NCBI GenBank assembly: GCA_030831135.1
Contig: JAURLR010000163.1
Location: forward strand, 1 to 12,082
Origin: Alphaproteobacteria bacterium
GTDB taxonomy: Bacteria; Pseudomonadota; Alphaproteobacteria; UBA6615
Direction: 5' to 3'
Length of the DNA: 12,082 nucleotides
Each line of letters opens with the position of its first letter. Position 1 is the stretch's first letter. Below the pieces are notes generated by a model. It was not told the DNA's origin and ran no database searches. It was given only the letters and a program-made list of their open reading frames with translations. Positions 1 to 10,483 of this stretch are shown here, one piece after another. Position numbers and translations under genes: made by a program.

Positions 1-1505
1 GGCGCGTCCCAGGAATAGGCCTTGTCGATCCGCAGAGCCTTTCCCTCGTCATCCACCAGCAGGTCTTCGGGGTCGGTCACAAAGCCCAGCGGCGGCCCAG
101 CCATTGGACTTCCCGGAGAGACCTGATCGGGCTTGCCGGCTGGTTTGGGCCCCGGGGGGGCCGGGCGCGGGAAGGGAGGCTTGTAGCGAAAACCACCGGG
201 GCAATCGATGCTGCCGAGCAGCATCTGCAGGATATGAATGGCCCGACAGGTCTGGAAACCATTGGAGTGGGCGGAAATCCCACGCATGGCATGCATGGAA
301 ACCGGGCGACCGATCATCTTGTCATGCTTGCGCCCGGCCCAGTCGGTCCAGGGGATGTCGAGGGTGATTTCCTGCTCAAAGGCGGCATGGGCCAGTTCGC
401 CGGCGATACGTCGGATGGTTGCCGCATCGATCCCGGTCTGACTTGCGACGGCGTCGGGGCTGTAACGGGGGTCGAGATAGCGTTCGAGCAGCAATTCGAA
501 TGCCGGGACGGCCTCCGCATTGGCGCCACCATCGTCGGAGATGTCGACGGGCAGTGTGAAGCTGCCCCGCATGGCCGGGTCGATATCGGTTCGTGCGGCA
601 TCGACCACTTGTTCCGTTGTACGGTCGTAGGCCAGTGGCTCGCCATTCTTGCCGCGGACGAACAATCCGTCTTCCGCCGTGCCCGGCGCACGGCGCACGA
701 GCCAATGGGCATTGGTGTAGCGAACCAGAAATTCGAGATCGACCTTGCCCGCGTGCAGCAGTTCATGGATGAGCGCCATCACGAACAGGCCGTCACTGCC
801 CGGTCGAATGCCGACCCACTCGTCGGCGATGGCCGAGTAGCCGGTCCGCACGGGATTCACAGACACGAACTTGGCCTGGCCCTTGGTCTTGAGTTTTCCC
901 AGACCCATCTTGATCGGGTTGGAATCGTGGTCCTCGGCGACGCCGAACATCATGAAGTAGCGCGTGTTCGCCCAGTCCGGCTCGCCGAACTCCCAGAAGG
1001 AACCGCCAATCGTATAGATCCCTGCCGCTGCCATATTGACCGAGCAGAAGCCGCCATGGGCGGCGTGATTGGGTGTCCCGAACTGGCTGGCCCAGAAACC
1101 TGTGAGAGACTGGCTCTGGTCGCGCCCGGTAAAGAAAGCCAGCTTGCGCGGGTCCTTGTTACGGATTTCCGAGAGCCAGTCGCTTGCCGTCGACAGGGCT
1201 TCTTCCCAGGAAATCGCTTCGAATTCGCCCGAGCCGCGCGGACCGACCCGGCGCAGGGGCTGCGAGAGCCGGGCCGGGGAATAATGCTGCATGATTCCCG
1301 CCGAACCCTTGGCGCAAAGCACGCCCTTGTTCACCGGGTGTTTGCGATTGCCCTCGATATAGCGGATCGCACCATCCTTGAGGTGGACATTGATGCCGCA
1401 GCGGCAGGCGCACATGTAGCAGGTTGTCTGCTTGATCTCGTCGGAGACGGTCGGTGAAAGATCAACCGTCTCGTAACGATCATCGGGGCGGATATCGTCG
1501 GGCAT
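1..1505 (-). CDS. soeA: SoeA-like molybdopterin oxidoreductase, catalytic subunit (C-terminal part beyond window)
   Basis: This frame runs open from an ATG at 1505 to the left edge, giving 501 codons of a family whose members are usually near 950 residues. The N-terminus has a [4Fe-4S] motif, CYMCACRC (C29, C32, C36, plus an extra C34), completed by C64 in VLCAKG, whose lysine K66 is typical between cluster and pterin in the DMSO-reductase superfamily. C154 in GGFCSVN is a plausible molybdenum ligand. There is no twin-arginine signal, so the protein should be cytoplasmic, as in SoeABC, where the enzyme oxidises sulfite to sulfate on the cytoplasmic side and feeds the quinone pool. It follows the usp gene by 9 bp with an AGGA ribosome site. 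Iron-sulfur (SoeB) and NrfD-type (SoeC) partners would be expected beyond the edge. The superfamily is certain. The SoeA assignment rests on overall resemblance and sulfur neighbours; a formate dehydrogenase-like or polysulfide reductase-like enzyme is the alternative. Confidence 0.8.
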   Translation of the reverse strand, partial: MPDDIRPDDRYETVDLSPTVSDEIKQTTCYMCACRCGINVHLKDGAIRYIEGNRKHPVNKGVLCAKGSAGIMQHYSPARLSQPLRRVGPRGSGEFEAISWEEALSTASDWLSEIRNKDPRKLAFFTGRDQSQSLTGFWASQFGTPNHAAHGGFCSVNMAAAGIYTIGGSFWEFGEPDWANTRYFMMFGVAEDHDSNPIKMGLGKLKTKGQAKFVSVNPVRTGYSAIADEWVGIRPGSDGLFVMALIHELLHAGKVDLEFLVRYTNAHWLVRRAPGTAEDGLFVRGKNGEPLAYDRTTEQVVDAARTDIDPAMRGSFTLPVDISDDGGANAEAVPAFELLLERYLDPRYSPDAVASQTGIDAATIRRIAGELAHAAFEQEITLDIPWTDWAGRKHDKMIGRPVSMHAMRGISAHSNGFQTCRAIHILQMLLGSIDCPGGFRYKPPFPRPAPPGPKPAGKPDQVSPGSPMAGPPLGFVTDPEDLLVDDEGKALRIDKAYSWDA

Positions 1506-1514
1506 AAGTCCTCA

Positions 1515-2033
1515 TCAAACCAGTCGGTCTATCTGTTCATCGGTCAGTCCACCGGGCACGATTGTGACGGGGATTCGCAGCAGGCTGATGGCCTTCTTTG
1601 TCAGATACGTGATCAGCGGGCCGGGCCCGCGTCGCCCGGTTGCAGCGGCAAGCACCAGAATGCGGATGTCATCATCTTCATCGATCAGGTCGATGACTGC
1701 GGCTTTGATGTCACCTTCCCGCAGGTAGAGAACGGGCATGCCGCCATAGAGTTTGAACACCTCGGCTGCATGTTCCTGCAGCAATTGTTCGGCTTCCTCA
1801 CGCGCTTCCACGGTCATCAGCTTCCCGACGGCAGCCCAGTGCTGAAAATCGGCCGGACGGATCACGCGGACAAGTCCGACGCGGCCGCCGGTCCGCCGGG
1901 CGCGCAGGCTGGCCCAGCGAAGGGCCACGTGCATTTCGGGCGTGTTGTCGACGACCACCAGAAATACCGCCGGGCGACCGCCGTCAGCATCACGGTGACC
2001 GAGGGATGAATCTGGGGCGAGCGAATCAGTCAT
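1515..2033 (-). CDS. UspA-like universal stress protein with degenerate nucleotide-binding motif
   Basis: A 172-residue single-domain protein with the alternating beta/alpha pattern of the Usp fold: a hydrophobic first strand followed by VDNTPE (residues about 24-34), a central RLREGD-like strand region, and a C-terminal segment ending in RIPVTIVPG, the usual Usp last strand. The family's ATP-binding signature G-x2-G-x9-G-S/T is only partly present: GRRGPGP supplies the first glycines, but the later G-S/T is not seen, so ATP binding is doubtful. The start lies 5 bp after the preceding stop, with an AAGGT-like ribosome site inside the end of that gene, so translation is probably coupled. It sits between the TIGR02186 gene and the SoeA-like gene, which suggests a role tied to sulfur stress. 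The exact role is unknown. Confidence 0.85.
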   Translation of the reverse strand: MTDSLAPDSSLGHRDADGGRPAVFLVVVDNTPEMHVALRWASLRARRTGGRVGLVRVIRPADFQHWAAVGKLMTVEAREEAEQLLQEHAAEVFKLYGGMPVLYLREGDIKAAVIDLIDEDDDIRILVLAAATGRRGPGPLITYLTKKAISLLRIPVTIVPGGLTDEQIDRLV

Positions 2034-2038
2034 GTCAG

Positions 2039-2812
2039 TCAGACCTTACGGAACACGAAGCCGGCGAACCACCCGGCAAAGAGTGCAATCAGCACGGCGA
2101 GGAGGCCGTACCAGTGCGAATTTTCAAAGGCGAATTCCGTCACCTTGGCTTCTATGCCGACCTTGCGAACAGACAACTGGGTTGAAGAGCGGCTCACGAT
2201 TTGCGCGTTGTCCACCAGCAGAACCGTCACCGTGTATTCGCCCGTCGGCACATTGGCGGGAAGTTCGAGGCGGGTTCGGAACAATCGTCCACCCTGGATG
2301 CTGACATCCCCCACCTTCTCGCCATAAAGGCCGCTGCGTTGCTTGTTACGGATCAGGGCGTCGCGGAACACCTGCTCTTCGCCGGGGGTCAGGAACTCAT
2401 GGGGCCTGAAGATGATGTTGTCGACCCCGATCTGATTGGCCTGGGCTTTGGCCGGAGAGAGAATTTCGTCGATCGGTGCGGAGGCCGCGACCTGATAGAA
2501 GCCGGGCGCATCATCAAATGTCAGTTCGTCCGCATTGACCCAAATTCCCGCCACGCGCGCCTTGCGCCGCACCACCACGCTACTGTTGGGGGAGCGAACA
2601 AGGACGATGACGTCGCCTTGTCCATCCGTGGTCCCGAACAGCAGGACGCTCGCCCCGGTAAAGCCGGTACTGATCCCGATCAACTCGTCGCTGAGGTCCA
2701 CGAGAAGCGCGTCTTCGCGCGCCGCATCAGCGGGAATCTGCAGGATGGCCAAGACTGCAAGCGCGAAGAGCGGCATCCGCAACCAGACTGTTGTGGGGCG
2801 CGAAATCCTCAT
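2039..2812 (-). CDS. TIGR02186 family (Alph_Pro_TM) membrane-anchored periplasmic protein
   Basis: A 257-residue protein with an N-terminal signal peptide (hydrophobic core about residues 11-28, AlaAspAlaAla cleavage region) and one C-terminal transmembrane helix at about 233-253 ending in a positive FRKV tail. The bulk is therefore predicted to be periplasmic and anchored at the C-terminus. The central part contains FTGASVLLFG and later EYTVTVLLVDN, both typical of the alphaproteobacterial family TIGR02186/PF09608, which has no established biochemical function. Its start overlaps the stop of the TSUP gene (ATGA), so the two are translationally coupled. The constant pairing suggests it works with the exporter, for example as a periplasmic partner; this is inference. 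No cysteines or cofactor motif were noticed. Confidence 0.85.
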   Translation of the reverse strand: MRISRPTTVWLRMPLFALAVLAILQIPADAAREDALLVDLSDELIGISTGFTGASVLLFGTTDGQGDVIVLVRSPNSSVVVRRKARVAGIWVNADELTFDDAPGFYQVAASAPIDEILSPAKAQANQIGVDNIIFRPHEFLTPGEEQVFRDALIRNKQRSGLYGEKVGDVSIQGGRLFRTRLELPANVPTGEYTVTVLLVDNAQIVSRSSTQLSVRKVGIEAKVTEFAFENSHWYGLLAVLIALFAGWFAGFVFRKV

Positions 2813-3735
2813 AGCCCGAAGCCGTCGATTTCATTGATCGAGTAGAGATCTTCGGGCCTTGCCACAAGCTCGATCCCGATTTTGGCACAGACCGCGAGGA
2901 CCATCAGCGCGAGAAGTCCCCGCAGTTGCTCACCGCGCAGTTTTCCGCCGACCTTTGTGCCGATCTGGGCACCAACAACAGCCCCGGTCAGCAACAGCAG
3001 CGCCAGGACGATATCAACCGTCTGGTTGTTGACCGCCTGTAGATAGGTGACGTTCGCAGTCACGAAGATGATCTGAAACAGGGATGTGCCGACAACCACG
3101 GATGTGGGCATCCCGAGCAGGTAGATCATGGCCGGCACCATCAGGAATCCGCCGCCCACGCCCATGATGGCGGCAAGGATGCCCACGAAAAAGCCGATCG
3201 AAAGCGGCAGAAGGGCGCTGATGTAAAGCCGGGACCGCCGAAACCGCATCTTGAAGGGCAGGCCGTGGAGCCATGTGTGCTGGTGCAGCTTTCCGCGTGA
3301 CGCGGTGCCTTTCTGACGTCGGAGGATGGCGCGTCCGCTTTCAAACAGCATCAGTGATCCGACAATGCCCAGGAAGACGACGTAGCAAAGCCGAACGAGC
3401 AGATCGACTTGGCCGATTTCACGCAGGAACGTGAAGATGACAACACCAATGCTCGATCCGGCAAAGCCACCGATGGTGAGGACAATACCCATTTTGAAAT
3501 CGACATTGCGGCGGCGCATATGGGCCAGAACGCCAGAGACCGAAGCCGCAACGATCTGATTGGCCTCGGTGGCGACAGCCACGGCGGGCGAAATACCAAT
3601 GAAGATCAGCAGCGGTGTCATCAGGAACCCGCCGCCGACGCCAAACACCCCGGACAGAAATCCCACGCCCCCGCCCATCAGCAGGATGAGAAAGACGTCG
3701 ACCGACATCTCGGCAATGGGAAGGTAAATGCTCAT
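2809..3735 (-). CDS. TSUP (TauE/SafE) family sulfur-anion exporter
   Basis: A 308-residue integral membrane protein with about eight hydrophobic segments. It shows the internal duplication of the TSUP family: GVGGGFLMTP at residues 32-41 and GVGGGFLMVP at 192-201, exactly 160 residues apart. The two halves are joined by a basic, histidine-containing loop (about 138-170). Family members export sulfite, sulfoacetate or related sulfur anions across the inner membrane. Placed between a rhodanese and a sulfite-dehydrogenase-like gene, sulfite or thiosulfate is the likely substrate here, but the sequence alone cannot decide this. The ATG at 3735 has a clear GGAG ribosome site 5-6 bp upstream. The stop overlaps the start of the TIGR02186 gene. 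The 53-bp gap to the rhodanese gene contains only a short inverted repeat, GGTCA-N7-TGACC (3761-3777), and no convincing terminator. Confidence 0.92.
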   Translation of the reverse strand: MSIYLPIAEMSVDVFLILLMGGGVGFLSGVFGVGGGFLMTPLLIFIGISPAVAVATEANQIVAASVSGVLAHMRRRNVDFKMGIVLTIGGFAGSSIGVVIFTFLREIGQVDLLVRLCYVVFLGIVGSLMLFESGRAILRRQKGTASRGKLHQHTWLHGLPFKMRFRRSRLYISALLPLSIGFFVGILAAIMGVGGGFLMVPAMIYLLGMPTSVVVGTSLFQIIFVTANVTYLQAVNNQTVDIVLALLLLTGAVVGAQIGTKVGGKLRGEQLRGLLALMVLAVCAKIGIELVARPEDLYSINEIDGFGL

Positions 3736-3788
3736 TTTTCTCCGGCACGTCGAAGTTAAAGGTCAGACGTGGTGACCGCGTTATACGC

Positions 3789-4142
3789 TCAATCTATCGG
3801 GCCTGTCTCCATGGGGAGGCCGTCGGCAGCCCAAGCAATCATGCCGCCGGCCATACGATGTATCTGGCCTGTATAACCCGTGACAATGAGATGCTCGGCT
3901 GCAACACCACAGCGTCGCGCACTGCGGCAGTGCAGGATGAGGTCCTTGCCCTCGGGGGTCTTAATTTTGGCCGGATCAAATGTGGAGAGGGGGTTGAGGG
4001 TCGCACTTGCGATGCGGGCCTCATCAAACTCATGTGGCTCGCGCACATCGACGATATAGGCAGTGCCGTTTTCAATGCGGTCCTGCACTTCCCGGGGGTC
4101 AAGCATCCAGACTTCAACCCCGTTCTGGTCAATCGCTTGCAT
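3789..4142 (-). CDS. Single-domain rhodanese (sulfurtransferase)
   Basis: A 117-residue cytoplasmic rhodanese. The structural motif VDVREPHEF lies at 31-39 and the active-site loop is HCRSARRC, with the persulfide-forming cysteine at C72. Most single-domain rhodaneses read CRSGxR here, so the alanine is a mild variation, and a second cysteine (C78) sits at the loop end. The C-terminal MAGGMIAWAADGLP is typical of the family. It would accept sulfane sulfur, for example from thiosulfate or glutathione persulfide, and pass it to thiols such as the TusA-like protein encoded on the other arm of the divergon. The start at 4142 has an AGGG ribosome site and follows the regulator stop by 26 bp, supporting co-transcription. 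The physiological donor and acceptor are inferred from context. Confidence 0.93.
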   Translation of the reverse strand: MQAIDQNGVEVWMLDPREVQDRIENGTAYIVDVREPHEFDEARIASATLNPLSTFDPAKIKTPEGKDLILHCRSARRCGVAAEHLIVTGYTGQIHRMAGGMIAWAADGLPMETGPID

Positions 4143-4168
4143 CGGGTTTCCCTGTTTGGCATCCGCGC

Positions 4169-4480
4169 TCAGCCATTGGCAGGCTCCTCGGCGCAGAATA
4201 GTTCGTAAAGTGTTGCGAGTACGGCTCTGGCTTCGTTGCTGGCAACCGAATAGAAAATGGTCTGGGCCTCGCGCCGGGTGGTGACCAGCGCTTCCTTGCG
4301 GAGCCGGGCAAGATGCTGCGAGAGGGCGGACTGGCTGAGGCCCACCAGCTTTTCCAGCTCCCCGACGGATTTTTCACCCTGGATGAGGTGGCATAGAATC
4401 AACAGCCGACGCTCATTGGCGAGCGACTTCAGCAAGCGGCTGACCAGTTCGGCCTTATCTTCGAGGGCTGACGTATCCAT
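4169..4480 (-). CDS. bigR: BigR/SqrR-like ArsR-family persulfide-responsive repressor
   Basis: A 103-residue winged-helix regulator of the ArsR/SmtB family. Helix one carries LKSLANERRLLILCHL, the recognition region is VGLSQSALSQHLARLRKE (about 46-63), the wing follows, and the last helix ends LYELFC. The family metal motif ELCVCDL is absent. Instead two cysteines, C30 in LLILC and C96 in LYELFC, lie 66 residues apart. From memory this equals the C41/C107 spacing of the Rhodobacter SqrR persulfide sensor, also matched in BigR; in that group a tetrasulfide or disulfide bridge releases DNA. It heads the rhodanese-TSUP-soeA operon and faces the tusA-mtnA pair across 46 bp, so it probably represses both arms. 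No Shine-Dalgarno sequence is visible before its ATG (start of a possibly leaderless transcript). BigR versus SqrR naming is arbitrary here. Confidence 0.88.
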   Translation of the reverse strand: MDTSALEDKAELVSRLLKSLANERRLLILCHLIQGEKSVGELEKLVGLSQSALSQHLARLRKEALVTTRREAQTIFYSVASNEARAVLATLYELFCAEEPANG

Positions 4481-4526
4481 TTGAATTAGTGTATTCGTAT
4501 ATTAGCAAACTGGTCAATGTGAGATC
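4481..4526. promoter_or_regulatory. Divergent AT-rich promoter/operator of the sulfur divergon
   Basis: This 46-bp gap is markedly AT-rich against its surroundings. An inverted repeat, GAAT-TAGTGT-ATTC (4483-4496), is the candidate repressor site, and ATTAG occurs twice in direct orientation (4485-4489, 4501-4505). For the minus strand, TTGACC (4517-4512) and TACACT (4493-4488) are 18 bp apart. For the plus strand, TATATT (4498-4503) is a fair -10 with no good -35. The inverted repeat covers the minus -10, as expected for autorepression. Assignments are by eye. Confidence 0.6.
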
Positions 4527-4781
4527 ATGAAAGATATGTCCGAAATCACACCCGATGAAGTGCTCGACACCAGTGGTCTGAGATGTCCCTTGCCCGTGCT
4601 CAAGGCCAAGAAGGCATTGAAATCCATGACGCCTGGCGCAACGCTCAAGGTGATTGCGACAGATCCGGGCGCGGTCGGCGATTTCGCCCATTTCTGTGAT
4701 GCGACGGGCGATAGCTTGCTGGTGTCTGACGACACGGCGGGTGTGCTGACCTTCGTGATCCAAAAAGCGGGTGCAGCATGA
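4527..4781 (+). CDS. tusA: TusA-family sulfur-carrier protein
   Basis: An 84-residue protein with the TusA/SirA (PF01206) pattern: [19 protein letters not shown], in which C20 of the CPxP motif is the sulfur-carrying cysteine, then the strand [14 protein letters not shown] and FCDATGD with a second cysteine, C57. Such proteins accept sulfane sulfur from cysteine desulfurase or rhodanese and hand it to partners in tRNA thiolation, cofactor synthesis or sulfur oxidation. The gene faces the rhodanese operon and overlaps mtnA, so sulfur trafficking within this divergon is more likely than tRNA modification; this is inference. The ribosome site is weak (GTGAG before 4527). An in-frame ATG at 4536 is an alternative start that would shorten the protein by three residues. 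Confidence 0.92.
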
Positions 4782-5872
4782 ATATCAACGGACAGGCCCA
4801 TCGCACGATCTGGCTGGCCGATGACGGTTGGACGGTCGAAATCATCGACCAGACCCGGCTGCCGCACCGCTTTGAAATTGAGCCGCTGACGACACTCGAT
4901 GCAGCTGCCCATGCGATCCGCGCGATGCTGGTGCGCGGTGCGCCATTGATCGGGGCAACGGCGGCCTATGGCATGGCGCTCGCGATGCGGGAGGATTCCT
5001 CGGACGCCGGTTTGGACAAGGCCTATGCGCTGCTGAATGCCACACGCCCGACCGCGATCAATTTGCGTTGGGCGCTCGATGACATGCGGGCGCGCCTGCG
5101 GGACCAGCCGCAAGATCAGCGGGCTGATATCGCCTATGCGCGTGCGGCCCAAATGTGTGACGAGGATGTCGCGATCAACAGCGCGATCGGGGATCATGGC
5201 CTGGAAGTGATCCGCGCCGTCCATGCGGCGGCGCCAGGAGACGGCCCGGTCAATATTCTGACTCACTGCAATGCCGGTTGGCTGGCGACGGTGGATTGGG
5301 GGACGGCGCTGGCGCCGATCTACAAGGCGCATGATCTGGGGATTCCGGTCCATGTCTGGGCCGACGAAACCCGGCCCCGAAATCAGGGGGCAGCCCTGAC
5401 CGCTTGGGAGCTGGGCCAGCATGGTGTGTCCCATGCCGTGATCGCAGACAATGCCGGTGGGCATCTGATGCAGCACGGCATGGTCGATCTGTGCATCACG
5501 GGCACTGATCGCACGGCGGCATCGGGCGATGTGGCGAACAAGATCGGCACCTATCTGAAGGCGCTGGCCGCGCGTGACAACGAGATCCCGTTCTATGTGG
5601 CACTGCCGTCGCCGACCATCGACTGGACGCTGTCCGACGGTGTTCGGGATATCCCGATTGAAGAGCGCGATCAGCAGGAGGTCACGCATATTTCGGGAAA
5701 GACAGACGCGGGCGATATCGTTTCGGTGCAACTCACACCCGACGGGTCACCGGCCGGGAATTATGCCTTTGATGTGACGCCGGCGCGGCTTGTGACTGGA
5801 TTGATCACCGAGCGCGGAGTTTGCCCGGCAAGCCGGGACGGGCTTGCCGGCCTTTTTCCCGAACGCGTCTGA
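4778..5872 (+). CDS. mtnA: Methylthioribose-1-phosphate isomerase
   Basis: A 364-residue protein matching MtnA in length and motifs. [13 protein letters not shown] lies at 53-65 and NLRWALD near 95. The catalytic cysteine is C164 in [11 protein letters not shown], and the catalytic aspartate is D244 in [19 protein letters not shown]. The C-terminus has the typical [15 protein letters not shown]. The enzyme isomerises the aldose 5-methylthioribose 1-phosphate to 5-methylthioribulose 1-phosphate in salvage of methylthioadenosine, in the cytoplasm. The ATG overlaps the tusA stop (ATGA), so translation is coupled. No mtnP, mtnK, mtnB, mtnC or mtnD is in the window, so the steps before and after must be encoded elsewhere, or the product enters a shunt. 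Related eIF2B-like or ribose-1,5-bisphosphate isomerases are less likely, given the methylthioribose-type motifs. Confidence 0.95.
5825..5857 (+). terminator. Intrinsic-terminator-like hairpin inside the mtnA 3' end
   Basis: A perfect 10-bp GC-rich stem, CCGGCAAGCC (5825-5834) with GGCTTGCCGG (5841-5850), has a 6-base loop and is followed by CC and TTTTT (5853-5857). It has the form of a rho-independent terminator but lies within the last codons of mtnA, 13 bases before the TGA begins. Efficient termination here would yield a stopless mRNA, so it may be weak. Confidence 0.55.
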
Positions 5873-5917: not shown

Positions 5918-6226
5918 CTAACGCGGTGTGGCGTCGCCACCTTCAACGATCACCAGTTCGTTGTTGGCAACGCCCGCCGCGCGGCGATGGGCGGCTGCTT
6001 CGACATATTCGGGTGAATTGAAGCAGGCTTCGGCATCGGCCATGGAATCGAACTCGACCACGATGAAACGCTCATAGGGTGACTGGCCTTCGAGAACCTT
6101 GAATTCTCCGCCGCGCGCCAGTGGACGACCACCGAACTTCTTCAGGATGCCGGGAACCTGGTCGGTGTATTTCTTGTAGGCGACGGGGTCTTTGATCGTG
6201 GAACGGGCAAGCCAGTAGGCGGGCAT
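5918..6226 (-). CDS. DUF1330 family protein
   Basis: Starting at the ATG at 6226 gives 102 residues beginning MPAYWLARSTI, the standard N-terminus of DUF1330 (PF07045). An upstream in-frame ATG would add 17 residues that do not resemble the family, and the chosen start has a GAGAG ribosome site. Conserved features are the DPVAYKKYTDQVP stretch, GGRPLARGG and ERFIVVEFDSMADAEACFNSPEY. These are small dimeric alpha/beta-barrel (ferredoxin-like) proteins, related in fold to antibiotic-biosynthesis monooxygenases, without a settled activity. The gene follows the diheme cytochrome gene by 47 bp in the same direction, so it may be its last cistron. Nothing in the sequence shows a cofactor. Confidence 0.9.
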   Translation of the reverse strand: MPAYWLARSTIKDPVAYKKYTDQVPGILKKFGGRPLARGGEFKVLEGQSPYERFIVVEFDSMADAEACFNSPEYVEAAAHRRAAGVANNELVIVEGGDATPR

Positions 6227-6273
6227 GGTCTCTCTCACTGTGGTTTGACGGACGACGCAGGCAGCGCCGGTAT

Positions 6274-7149
6274 TCACTCGTTGCTAGCGATTGGCTTGAG
6301 GGACGTCAAATAGGTCGCGATGGCTTCGCGGTCTTCGGGTGTGAGCTTGCTGGTGTTGTCGTCCACCACCTCGGTCATGGAGCCGCCCAGAAAATCGCCG
6401 TCGGGAAGCATTCCGATTTCCAGCGCGGAAACGATATCGTCCATGCTCCAGTCCCCGATGCCGCCGGGGCCCGGTGTGATGTTGGGGACCGCTTTACCCT
6501 CGGGCCCGTTCTTGTAGCCCGACAGGGCCCGGTCCGCATCGACAACACCGATGATATTCCGGGGGCTGTGGCATTCACCGCAATGGCCCGGCCCGGTGAC
6601 CAGATATGCCCCCCGGTTCCACTCCGCCGATTGGGAGGGGTCGGGCGCGAACGGCGCATCATCGAGGAACAGCAACTGCCAACCGATCATGCTCATACGG
6701 ATTTTGAACGGAAAGGCCAGGTCATGCGCGGGCACCGGATTCCGCACGGCGGGGGTGGAATCCAGATAGGCCTTGAGGTCGACGATGTCCTGAACCGTCA
6801 TGCGCGCATAGGACGTGTAGGGGAAGGTGGGATAGTAGCGCGCGCCCGTGGGCGAAACACCCTTGCGCAAGGCCTTGATGAAGTCTTCGTCGCTCCAGCC
6901 GCCGATCCCGGTTTCGGGATCGGGCGTGATGTTGGGTGAAAAGAAAGATCCGAAATCGGTTTTCAGTTCGCGGCCACCGGCCAGAAACGCGCCGCCCTTT
7001 TCGACGGTATGACAGGCGACGCAGCCACCGGTCGCCAGAACATACTCGCCACGGGCCGGGTCTCCCGTCTGGGCATGGGCATCGGGATAGGCAAAGGGCG
7101 CAACGGTTATCGAGGCGAGTGCAAGCAGGGTGCGAAGAAGGTTTTTCAT
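6274..7149 (-). CDS. Periplasmic diheme c-type cytochrome
   Basis: A 291-residue exported protein with a signal peptide (hydrophobic core about 5-20, cleavage near AHA-QT at 26/27). Two haem-binding motifs are present: CVACH (C43, C46, H47) and CGECH (C190, C193, H194). Likely distal methionines are M117 in YARMT and M258 in LGGSM. Both domains end in the K/R-rich, YL-containing helix typical of class I cytochromes c (IVDLKAYL and AIATYLTSL). The pattern NITPDPETGIGGWSD and the YPTFPYTSYARMT stretch resemble the cytochrome subunits of periplasmic alcohol, aldehyde or gluconate dehydrogenases, which usually carry three haems; here there are only two, and no dehydrogenase is adjacent. It probably shuttles electrons to an oxidase or the bc1 complex. 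The partner enzyme is unknown. An AGGA ribosome site precedes the ATG. Confidence 0.92.
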   Translation of the reverse strand: MKNLLRTLLALASITVAPFAYPDAHAQTGDPARGEYVLATGGCVACHTVEKGGAFLAGGRELKTDFGSFFSPNITPDPETGIGGWSDEDFIKALRKGVSPTGARYYPTFPYTSYARMTVQDIVDLKAYLDSTPAVRNPVPAHDLAFPFKIRMSMIGWQLLFLDDAPFAPDPSQSAEWNRGAYLVTGPGHCGECHSPRNIIGVVDADRALSGYKNGPEGKAVPNITPGPGGIGDWSMDDIVSALEIGMLPDGDFLGGSMTEVVDDNTSKLTPEDREAIATYLTSLKPIASNE

Positions 7150-7163
7150 TTGGCTATCCTAAC

Positions 7164-7193
7164 AAAAAAACGCCCGGCAGGGCCGGGCGTTTT
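7164..7193 (-). terminator. Strong intrinsic terminator after the class II cytochrome gene
   Basis: CGCCCGGC (7171-7178), an AGG loop, and GCCGGGCG (7182-7189), extended by four A-T pairs, give a stable stem. On the minus strand it is followed by seven T residues (7170-7164). It lies 24 bp after the class II cytochrome stop but only 14 bp before the diheme cytochrome start. With four T residues on the plus side it could also act weakly in that direction. Confidence 0.85.
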
Positions 7194-7216
7194 CAGAATT
7201 GATCGTGTTGGACTGT

Positions 7217-7693
7217 TTAGACTTCGGGGCCGCGATAAACCTTGTGGCATGTGCCACAGGTTGCGCCGATGCTTCCGACAACGGCTTTCGGGTCAGACCC
7301 GAGCGTGCCGGCAGCGGCATCAGCTGCAACCTTGTCGGCTGCCGTTCCCATAGCGGCTGCCTTGGCATTGAAGTCAGCCATGTTGTCCCAGATTTCCGGC
7401 TTTGCGCGGGACTTTTCCGGAATTTCTTTGTCCATGAACAGCGCGGGCATCTTCGCCGCGACGGCACTGATCGCCTTCGCGGCTGCCTCTGCGTCAGCGG
7501 CATTGCCGGCCGCGACAGCGCCACCGAGCTTTTTCATATTGCCACCCATCGATTTCATCGCCGCGTTGCGTTCCTTGTAGTGATGTCCATCAGCTGATGC
7601 GACATCGCTGCTGAAGGTACCGAAAGCGGCGACGACAGCAAGGGCACTTGCTGCCATGAGGCCGTTACGGAGGGTCTTGCGAACCGAATTCAT
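7217..7693 (-). CDS. Class II c-type cytochrome (cytochrome c'/c556 type)
   Basis: From the ATG at 7693 the protein has 158 residues. This start gives a clean signal peptide (hydrophobic 11-25, ASA cleavage near 32-34) and an AGGGAG ribosome site; an open extension upstream has no signal-like N-terminus. The mature part is alanine-rich and helical, as expected of a four-helix bundle, with the haem motif near the C-terminus: CGTCHKVYRG (C146, C149, H150), diagnostic of PF01322. Methionines in RNAAMKSMGGNM near the mature N-terminus could supply a sixth ligand, which would make it a low-spin c556-like protein. Without a clear alignment, a five-coordinate cytochrome c' that binds nitric oxide remains possible. 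It is followed by a strong terminator and preceded by a divergent regulatory region. Confidence 0.92.
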   Translation of the reverse strand: MNSVRKTLRNGLMAASALAVVAAFGTFSSDVASADGHHYKERNAAMKSMGGNMKKLGGAVAAGNAADAEAAAKAISAVAAKMPALFMDKEIPEKSRAKPEIWDNMADFNAKAAAMGTAADKVAADAAAGTLGSDPKAVVGSIGATCGTCHKVYRGPEV

Positions 7694-7920
7694 ATTCAAT
7701 CTCCCTGTTACCCATGTGCTGGGTGATGCGGCATCCCGCCACATGTGTGAGCCATGGAGCCTGTTAAGCATTTGGTTTTCCATAAAAATATCACATCGAT
7801 CACGGAAACGTGAACAAAAACGACAAAATGATTCACGGCTGCGTGAGATCGGGAATAAAGCGGCGACGAGACTGTTAACGTGCACGTGTGTTTCAGTCTG
7901 AAATTCAGTGGAGACGGTTC
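7694..7920. promoter_or_regulatory. Divergent control region with two TCACG-N4-CGTGA palindromes
   Basis: This 227-bp gap between the class II cytochrome and DUF1223 genes holds two identical-core palindromes, TCACG-GAAA-CGTGA (7800-7813) and TCACG-GCTG-CGTGA (7833-7846). Their centres are 33 bp apart, about three helical turns. Further palindromes are ACGTGCACGT (7878-7887), CACATGTG (7740-7747), and two small adjacent hairpins at 7710-7724 and 7725-7735 in the cytochrome leader. The stretch around 7770-7830 is AT-rich and probably holds the promoters, but I cannot fix -35/-10 boxes with confidence. No coding region is supported here. Confidence 0.6.
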
Positions 7921-9688: not shown

Positions 9689-10483
9689 TTATGTCTGGTA
9701 CTTGCGGAATTCCGGCTTGCGGCGTTCCTGAAAGGCGCGGGCGCCTTCCCTCGATTCTTCCGTGGCGTAATAAAGCTTCTGGGCCTCAAAGCCCATTGCC
9801 CCGATGCCCTTGATGTGGTCGGTGTCGATGTTGAAGGATCGCTTGGCGATGGCCAGTGCCGTGGGGCTGCGCTCCATCAGGTCGGCACACCAGCGCGCGA
9901 CTTCGGCATCGAGTTCACGGTCCGGGACAACCGCGTTGGCGAGCCCTATCTCCAGCGCTTCGCGGGCGGTGTACTGGCGACACATGTACCAGATCTCGCG
10001 CGCCTTCTTCTCGCCCACGATCCGCGCCAGATAGGCAGTGCCATAGCCCGGATCCACCGAGCCCATGCTGGGGCCGACCTGTCCGAAAATCGCACTCTCG
10101 CCCGCCAGGGTCAGATCACAGACCGTGGCGATCACGTTGCCGCCGCCAATCGCATAGCCGCGCACCTTGGCGATCACCGGTTTCGGGATATCCCGGATCA
10201 GGCCCTGGAGTTCCTCGATCGGAATGCCGATCGTGCCGCGGCGGCTGCCGTAGCCTTCGGTCGATTTGTTGTCGAGAGACTGGTCGCCACCCGACGAGAA
10301 GGCACGATCTCCCGCGCCTGTGATGACCACGACGCCAATGGATTTGTCCCAGCCGGCGTTCTGCAAGGCGTCGATCATTTCCTCGACGGTCTGGCCACGA
10401 AAAGCGTTCAGCTTGTCGGGCCGGTTGATGGTGATCGTCGCAACGCCGTCCTGGACGTCGTACAGAATGTCTTCATAGGCCAT
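9689..10483 (-). CDS. badI: BadI/MenB-type crotonase (likely 2-ketocyclohexanecarboxyl-CoA hydrolase)
   Basis: A 264-residue crotonase-fold protein. The CoA and oxyanion-hole segments are AFSSGGDQ (61-68) and GYAIGGGNVIATVCDL (109-124). GQVGPSMGSVDPGYGTA (134-150) and EKKAREIWYMC (158-168) follow, and the C-terminus is EESREGARAFQERRKPEFRKY. These segments mark the MenB/BadI subgroup. BadI opens the ring of 2-ketocyclohexane-1-carboxyl-CoA to pimelyl-CoA in benzoyl-CoA/cyclohexanecarboxylate degradation; MenB closes a ring in menaquinone synthesis. RSPTALAIAKRSFNID and the PIEELQGLIRDIPKPVIAKVRGY stretch recall Rhodopseudomonas BadI more than MenB. No other bad or men gene is nearby, so substrate assignment is moderate. 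It is divergent from the VOC gene across 102 bp and precedes fcl. The ribosome site is poor. Confidence 0.85.
   Translation of the reverse strand: MAYEDILYDVQDGVATITINRPDKLNAFRGQTVEEMIDALQNAGWDKSIGVVVITGAGDRAFSSGGDQSLDNKSTEGYGSRRGTIGIPIEELQGLIRDIPKPVIAKVRGYAIGGGNVIATVCDLTLAGESAIFGQVGPSMGSVDPGYGTAYLARIVGEKKAREIWYMCRQYTAREALEIGLANAVVPDRELDAEVARWCADLMERSPTALAIAKRSFNIDTDHIKGIGAMGFEAQKLYYATEESREGARAFQERRKPEFRKYQT

Follow-up and report, generated by a model that had tools for sequence, protein, structure and literature searches.

The window analysed here is a DNA stretch of 12,082 bp, the complete contig C98 of genome G000 (2.38 Mb in 389 contigs, 84.6% complete), in which the gene for an ArsR-type repressor heads an operon on the minus strand and faces tusA and mtnA across a gap of 46 bp (4481-4526), the reading frames of tusA and mtnA sharing 4 bp. 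We propose, at a probability of roughly 0.55, that this is an autoregulated, sulfur-responsive divergent unit, in which the repressor would sit on a conserved block in the gap and, when released by sulfane sulfur, would allow both arms to rise. The proposal draws on the genes themselves, a contig overlap, two cysteines, the conserved block, a promoter spacing, gene copy numbers and a phylogenetic pattern, all read from the window and from its family as sampled here (24 genomes of uncultured alphaproteobacteria, G000 being the window's own); these genomes are incomplete, which bounds every statement on copy number. An earlier note on this DNA had assigned eight genes to the cluster, and the open reading frames and family profile matches bore out the position and identity of each (Table 1). 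The divergent layout is real and goes beyond chance, the same arrangement recurring in relatives.

According to this model, the reduced repressor would occupy the 20-bp block, thereby masking the -10 element of its own promoter, some of that promoter's spacer and the DNA just upstream of tusA. Sulfane sulfur would bridge C30 and C96, the repressor would leave the DNA, and transcription on both sides would rise. The minus operon would then supply a sulfur-transferring rhodanese, a TauE exporter and the TIGR02186 protein as its partner in the membrane, the universal stress protein Usp and a SoeABC sulfite:quinone oxidoreductase, and sulfite arising from excess sulfane sulfur would be exported, or oxidised to sulfate with electrons passing to quinone. 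The plus arm would contribute the cell's only TusA as a sulfur carrier, and the only MtnA would ride on the same transcript.

The repressor and the conserved block

The repressor has an ArsR winged-helix domain (HTH_5, 47.7 bits against a cut-off of 22). When it was aligned with the SqrR and HlyU chains, C30 and C96 fell on cysteines of the SqrR chain that we take to be the functional cysteines of SqrR. Among the 13 aligned repressors of the family, its own included, C96 is kept in all and C30 in 12. Two-cysteine regulators of this group are reported to have rhodanese and TauE genes as neighbours, and those that have been characterised form a tetrasulfide bridge (PMC12423496). By analogy, sulfane sulfur would be the ligand of the repressor in the window.

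Comparing the gaps side by side brought out a shared block, TTAGTRTATTCGYATATTAG. A genome-wide search allowing up to two mismatches found a single copy in 13 of the 24 family genomes, always in the tusA-repressor gap, and the reversed control pattern had no match in the family genomes at the same setting. The 13 are the 12 genomes with a close repressor (at least 69% identity, the window's own included) together with G017, where the repressor is broken. A diverged repressor, at 41% identity, is found in G014, whose version of the block has four mismatches. The best match in the repressor-less gaps of G003, G013 and G011 has at least seven mismatches, and none of the seven genomes with tusA facing tauE and no repressor there holds the block at up to two. 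Mean pairwise identity of the block over 12 genomes is 92.8%, against 42.9% at third codon positions of the repressor gene; the other references gave 32.1% at fourfold sites encoding an identical residue, 71.0% over the adjoining 20 bases and 41.8% over the 20 bases beyond.

The window's genus has four repressor-bearing members, and in these only 5 bp separate the block from the repressor start, with tusA at most 46 bp away. On the minus strand it covers the -10 and part of the spacer of a predicted promoter, TTGACC-N18-TAYACT. This spacing, followed by an ATG 6 or 7 nt past the -10, was found in 12 of 14 family sequences (including G000, where the repressor ATG lies 7 nt past the -10, the broken G017, and G002 with TTGACG), and G004 (TAGACT) and G014 do not fit the pattern. 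Because the first repressor ATG follows the -10 so closely, the transcript is probably leaderless. By eye, the first ATG in G020-G023 lies upstream of, and in frame with, the start used for the repressor protein. A separate observation, also by eye, is that a short unit bearing the start codon is tandemly repeated at the repressor start of these four genomes, so that the N-termini beside the predicted leaderless start vary.

Since the block contains the promoter -10, a repressor bound to it would compete with polymerase. We infer that the repressor binds the DNA of the gap, and the sequence evidence makes control of its own operon likely. The idea in the earlier note that one regulator controls both arms gains from the block, an operator-like element sitting where both arms could be affected. 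The repressor would by this route also control tusA-mtnA, a claim we rate lower than control of its own operon because the weight lies on conservation and the promoter scan gave no tusA promoter.

Outside the family we examined the 80 top-scoring repressor loci from named genomes, among which the window's close relatives are not represented and short contigs are frequent. For 16 of these 80 repressor genes (17 in a first run), the upstream DNA scored higher with a matrix of the block than at least 99 of 100 shuffles did, whereas 20 column-permuted matrices applied to the same genes averaged 3.25 and reached 13 at most. Because one of the 20 permuted matrices reached 13/80, the operator enrichment outside the family is suggestive, not decisive. 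The dyad symmetry of the block is weak by eye, and a search of PMC10451225 for operator wording turned up no passage.

A number of observations weigh against the proposed model. The C30 position is not a cysteine in the G014 repressor. The top NCBIfam model for the window's repressor is NF040642, 'BigR', at 93.2 bits under a cut-off of 155, and for this reason we label the protein SqrR/BigR-type and not BigR; its earlier description as BigR/SqrR-like thus stands for the two-cysteine dithiol type and falls for BigR proper. G017 retains the block exactly despite its broken repressor, and tusA-mtnA faces the tauE operon with no intact repressor in G003, G013 and G017. The promoter scan is weak when taken alone (2 sites in the region versus 1.3 in shuffles), and in the gap it predicts none for tusA on the plus strand. 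The tusA match starts about 85-125 bp from the repressor gene in G001, G002 and G010, and the exact SqrR box ATTC-N8-GAAT (PMC9774250) is absent, by eye, from the gap.

Distribution and history of the unit

The nucleus of the unit is tusA facing tauE-TIGR02186. TusA scores over its cut-off in 21 of the 24 family genomes, the remaining three (G005, G012 and G019) being 61-89% complete, and in all 21 tusA is divergent to tauE-TIGR02186, with the G002 contig ending inside TIGR02186. A rhodanese match lies at the locus in 18 of these 21 (none there in G008, G009 and G011) and an intact repressor in 13; the G017 copy has stops in every frame, and no repressor was found at the locus in G003, G008, G009, G011, G013, G015 and G016. 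Directly after tusA comes mtnA in 15 of the 21; it lies about 0.7 kb beyond tusA in G011 and beside mtnP in G008, and a search of the family genomes found no MtnA in G001, G009, G015 and G016. The soeABC genes follow usp in 13/21, G000 being counted through its overlap with contig C167 (see below). About 1 kb separates usp from soeA in G010, the soeA match of G006 is split over two frames, the G002 locus is cut by the contig end, and only the start of soeA precedes the contig edge in G004. Looking behind usp only, we did not see soeABC in G008, G011, G014, G015, G016 and G017, the stretch beyond usp being only about 2 kb in G011 and G016. The conservation of both arms expected in the earlier note is therefore present in much of the family, with the repressor not intact in 8 of the 21 genomes that have tusA facing tauE; as these eight keep the pair, and three of them keep mtnA beside tusA, control by persulfide is not what binds the unit together.

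A FastTree phylogeny of concatenated TauE, TIGR02186, Usp and TusA from the 21 family genomes and three outgroup loci placed all 14 genomes with a repressor at the locus, 13 intact and one broken, within a 17-genome clade (support 1.0), which also holds G003, G015 and G016, none of them with a repressor. Outside this clade lies G013, with tusA and mtnA linked and no repressor. The tree was built from the cluster's own proteins, some of its nodes have little support (0.05, 0.08) and G011 falls among the outgroups. On the simplest reading of this pattern, tusA facing tauE came first, mtnA next and the repressor last, with later losses in G003 and in G015/G016 and breakage in G017. The repressor thus seems to be a later addition to the unit, although it may instead have been gained earlier, with more losses.

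These patterns bear on a different explanation, namely that the repressor governs only the minus operon, that tusA-mtnA is a housekeeping pair expressed independently, and that, tusA having faced tauE already when the repressor came in, the 'divergon' is simply two units sharing a gap. We regard this as somewhat unlikely. The facing of tusA and tauE-TIGR02186 in all 21 genomes, repressor or not, fits it, as do the confinement of the repressor to the 17-genome clade with mtnA beside tusA in G013 outside it, the single copies of TusA and MtnA wherever they were found, and a gap whose predicted promoter reads only toward the repressor. However, a repressor bound to the block, so near its own start and tusA alike, would probably hinder both, and 12 of the 80 repressor genes of this type outside the family have a divergent tusA upstream. 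Natural comparisons that keep tusA-mtnA facing tauE are available in G003 (no repressor), G017 (broken repressor) and G013 (outside the repressor clade).

Across the class, PF09608, the family of the TIGR02186 protein, scores over its cut-off in 187 of 289 sampled genomes. We took 60 such loci, one per family, from about 150 with coordinates, loci near contig starts being excluded. At these 60, tauE lies directly upstream in 56, usp downstream in 34 and soeABC after it in 6; a repressor of the window's type precedes it at 6 loci and a rhodanese at 1, while tusA was seen at 4, two divergent and two convergent. With queries taken from the window itself and with some contigs breaking off early, all of these neighbour counts are minimum values. 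TIGR02186 (PF09608) is therefore a near-constant neighbour of TauE across the class. The 80 repressor loci outside the family have, besides divergent tusA, rhodanese directly downstream in 5 and TIGR02186 downstream in 3, and an Azospirillum plasmid carries the same divergent tusA-repressor pair.

The tusA-mtnA arm

TusA carries the CPxP motif (as CPLP) of PF01206 and scores under the NCBIfam NF001423 equivalog cut-off (60.2 versus 78 bits). MtnA is over the TIGR00512 cut-off of 279 bits (Table 1), and its alignment with 1t9k is identical over THCNAG and has GTDR against GADR. One TusA match was found in 20 of the 21 family genomes, G002 having a second copy below the cut-off, and one MtnA match in each of the 17 that have it. 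As far as incomplete genomes allow a judgement, these single copies speak against the plus arm being a duplicate set reserved for sulfur oxidation. In E. coli, TusA supplies sulfur for the molybdenum cofactor and for tRNA thiolation.

Of the 15 genomes in which mtnA adjoins tusA, 11 carry an MtnP over its cut-off at another place; it is fragmentary or below the cut-off in G003 and G006 and was not found in G014 and G022. In most of these genomes, therefore, methylthioadenosine salvage most likely remains the role of MtnA. Three family genomes were examined around mtnP, and in each it has a gene for a beta-keto acid cleavage enzyme on one side and a glyoxalase-like gene on the other; these neighbours gave no lead to the next salvage step, for which no search was made for ARD, RuBisCO-like and MtnB genes.

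The mtnA combination was seen solely in the window's family, tusA-repressor and tauE-TIGR02186-usp recurring elsewhere as pieces. Perhaps mtnA is a hitchhiker, placed here by a chance rearrangement that was fixed in one family and is irrelevant to sulfur sensing, a possibility that we rate at not far below even odds. It is adjacent to none of the 60 TIGR02186 loci of other families (one mtnA-like match lies about 8 kb off), neither mtnA nor soeA occurs in any of the 80 repressor loci, the mtnA of G008 adjoins mtnP instead, and the mtnA-tusA link persists in three genomes with no intact repressor. Outside the family, the mtnA arm described in the earlier note thus finds no support. Within the family, however, mtnA adjoins tusA in 15 of the 21 pair genomes and is the only MtnA found, and it overlaps tusA in the window and touches or nearly touches it in several others. 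The stronger claim, that through a single dithiol repressor reactive-sulfur stress acts on both TusA and MtnA, each the only one in the cell, we hold to be rather unlikely. Were it true, the sulfane-sulfur signal that raises sulfite export and oxidation would also determine how much sulfur TusA delivers to the molybdenum cofactor and to tRNA thiolation and how fast methylthioadenosine is recycled, and lineages with a broken or deleted repressor would run all this constitutively; on the boldest reading, sulfane sulfur may control methionine salvage. The unit itself offers a case, open to experiment, in which a persulfide-type sensor sits over sulfur genes present in single copy.

The presumed sulfite-handling genes

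The TauE/TSUP protein passes the PF01925 cut-off and has 10 hydrophobic segments in a simple hydropathy scan. From its family it is likely a sulfite exporter, the outward direction of transport being presumed. Its neighbour scores 191 bits against the TIGR02186 NCBIfam cut-off of 255 and passes that of PF09608 at 270, with hydrophobic segments at residues 6-24 (N-terminal) and 234-257 (C-terminal). An AlphaFold2 model (predicted local distance difference test, pLDDT, 78.6; predicted template modelling score, pTM, 0.64) was compared with known folds and had Ig-like chains among its top rows at middling Z. The protein is thus predicted to hold an Ig-like beta-sandwich between the N-terminal hydrophobic segment and a C-terminal membrane helix. 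The names PF09608, Alph_Pro_TM and TIGR02186 were not found in the literature searched.

At the left end of the window soeA is cut by the contig edge. An exact-match overlap test at this end gave no match because the 22-nt overlap with the start of contig C167 holds one mismatch. C167 continues with the remainder of soeA, then soeB (249 aa, 16 cysteines) and soeC (315 aa, DmsC-type), and the same order is present in 12 relatives, so that the leftward extension suggested in the earlier note did lead to soeB and soeC. Of the FeS and NrfD-type subunits looked for beyond the edge, both are there, the anchor scoring as DmsC (PF04976) and not as NrfD itself. DmsC and SoeC are classed as NrfD-like subunits (PMC8076601). 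Contig C49 of G000, which starts inside a molybdoenzyme, was considered as the continuation of soeA and rejected, given that the relatives show C167 and that C49 encodes a different enzyme with no anchor gene adjoining. As observed on C49 itself, positions 1-2773 hold the C-terminus of this second molybdoenzyme and an FeS subunit with a weak, sub-cut-off carboxypeptidase-regulatory-like match, followed, by eye, by a methyltransferase-like reading frame.

SoeABC is defined by a Mo catalytic subunit that holds one [4Fe-4S] cluster and has no twin-arginine signal. The window's SoeA-like protein has the Fe-S motif C-x2-C-x3-C-x27-C, and RRxF is absent from its first 40 residues. A full-length relative in G007 matches PF04879, PF00384 and PF01568, and is 69% identical to three proteins that the Joint Genome Institute (JGI) names SoeA, among the 120 homologues listed. 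The 16 cysteines and Fer4_11 match of the C167 SoeB agree with a subunit carrying four [4Fe-4S] clusters, and the eight hydrophobic segments of SoeC (PF04976, DmsC) agree with an eight-helix NrfD-like anchor. From these features the enzyme would be SoeABC with sulfite as its substrate. It is very improbable that it is another complex iron-sulfur molybdoenzyme (CISM), such as a polysulfide or thiosulfate reductase, even though the top NCBIfam model is PhsA (far under its cut-off), the nearest solved chain is 2vpw, 'thiosulfate reductase', and most of the 120 homologues listed are nameless or generic, with one named formate dehydrogenase. The missing twin-arginine motif, the 16 cysteines of SoeB, the eight-segment DmsC-type anchor and the identity of the G007 relative to proteins named SoeA all argue against it.

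The source of sulfane sulfur

No enzyme for the step from sulfane sulfur to sulfite was found within the unit. The earlier note had pointed to the absence of a sulfide:quinone oxidoreductase (SQR) and an ETHE1-type dioxygenase, which is correct for the unit; the genome itself does hold, on contig C104, an ETHE1-like dioxygenase gene beside a BLH-SQR fusion. The fusion reading frame on C104 joins a BLH (DUF442-type) domain to an SQR-like flavoprotein. The two genes on this contig correspond to parts of the bigR operon, differently arranged, and the block match in G000 is on C98 only. A close dioxygenase match (at least 380 bits over the dioxygenase part) is present in 3 of the 24 family genomes (G000, G002 and G013), none of the 24 passes the cut-off of the full bifunctional model, and lower-scoring matches are uninformative, occurring in 23/24 family genomes and 13/14 controls. 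SQR, with a Methylocella query, matched in 4/24, all weakly. SoxB is over its cut-off in 0/24 with lower-scoring matches in four, and Xsc is likewise over its cut-off in none, although each of the 24, and each of 14 control genomes too, has lower-scoring matches.

Given this scarcity, the repressor might sense sulfite, disulfide or oxidative stress, the unit then being a sulfite-detoxification operon fed by organosulfur breakdown. We think this unlikely. It would suit the presumed sulfite handling (exporter and SoeABC) that dominates the minus operon, the counts just given for SoxB, SQR and the close sulfur dioxygenase, and the NCBIfam description of the related model NF040642 as 'sulfite-sensing'. 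However, the Xsc result counts against it, and the rhodanese, TusA and the two conserved cysteines point to sulfane sulfur (mechanism in PMC12423496).

Comparison with known systems

What is new here, judged from the sequence, would be the joining of repressor, soeABC and mtnA in one unit, the separate pieces being already known. In titles and abstract openings we found no publication joining such a repressor with soeABC and mtnA, and none on mtnA with tusA, on SoeABC with methylthioribose, or on SoeABC with Usp and TauE. The bigR operon of Xylella and Agrobacterium includes a sulfite transporter (PMC5823870); compared with it, the unit in the window has a single rhodanese, no ETHE1 dioxygenase, SoeABC, and a tusA-mtnA arm facing it. 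The repressor belongs to the same two-cysteine ArsR subgroup as Hyphomicrobium sHdrR and SoxR, whose neighbours include rhodanese and TauE genes, and regulators of this kind lie near sqr, sox, pdo, rhodanese, shdr, TauE and YeeE-family genes (PMC12423496). The window's family differs from these systems in its lack of SoxB over the cut-off (shdr was not searched), and the section of PMC12423496 at hand names no soeABC or mtnA.

The yrkD cluster of Bacillus licheniformis likewise brings a sulfane-sulfur repressor together with TusA, rhodanese and TauE homologues, but its regulator is CstR-like, sqr and pdo are included, and the excerpt names no SoeABC or MtnA (PMC9918477). E. coli ygaVP has, like our model, an SqrR-type autorepressor over its own promoter, with different target genes (PMC9774250). 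The SoeABC sulfite dehydrogenase described in PMC8076601 and PMC4334477 has the same three-subunit composition, although in Ruegeria pomeroyi the soe genes stand beside pta and near tauR, whereas in the window they stand behind the usp of the TauE-TIGR02186 operon.

Features of the window

Table 1. Features of the divergent unit in the window, with strand and supporting evidence.
Feature	Position	Strand	Evidence
soeA-like molybdopterin oxidoreductase, first 501 codons	3..1505	-	PF04879, PF00384; open at left edge
Usp, universal stress protein	1515..2033	-	PF00582, 47 bits
TIGR02186/PF09608 protein	2039..2812	-	PF09608 270 bits, cut-off 24.5
TauE/TSUP transporter, likely sulfite exporter	2809..3735	-	PF01925 170 bits
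Single-domain rhodanese	3789..4142	-	PF00581; active-site loop CRSARR
ArsR repressor, SqrR/BigR dithiol type (C30, C96)	4169..4480	-	HTH_5, NF040642, SqrR/HlyU alignment
Predicted repressor-operon promoter TTGACC-N18-TACACT	4488..4517	-	Promoter scan and conserved spacing
Conserved operator-like block TTAGTGTATTCGTATATTAG	4486..4505	+	Genome-wide pattern search and identity comparison
tusA	4527..4781	+	PF01206 77.9 bits; sole TusA match in genome
mtnA, S-methyl-5-thioribose-1-phosphate isomerase	4778..5872	+	TIGR00512 413.8 bits; sole match in genome

Beyond mtnA, at 5918-7885 on the minus strand, the window carries genes for a DUF1330 protein, a c-type cytochrome and a cytochrome c', a trio that 7 of the first 12 relatives retrieved also carry in this position. 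Further on, at 9689-10483, lies a gene of the enoyl-CoA hydratase family that resembles BadI most (436 bits, under the cut-off of 468) and hints at cyclohexane-carboxylate degradation.

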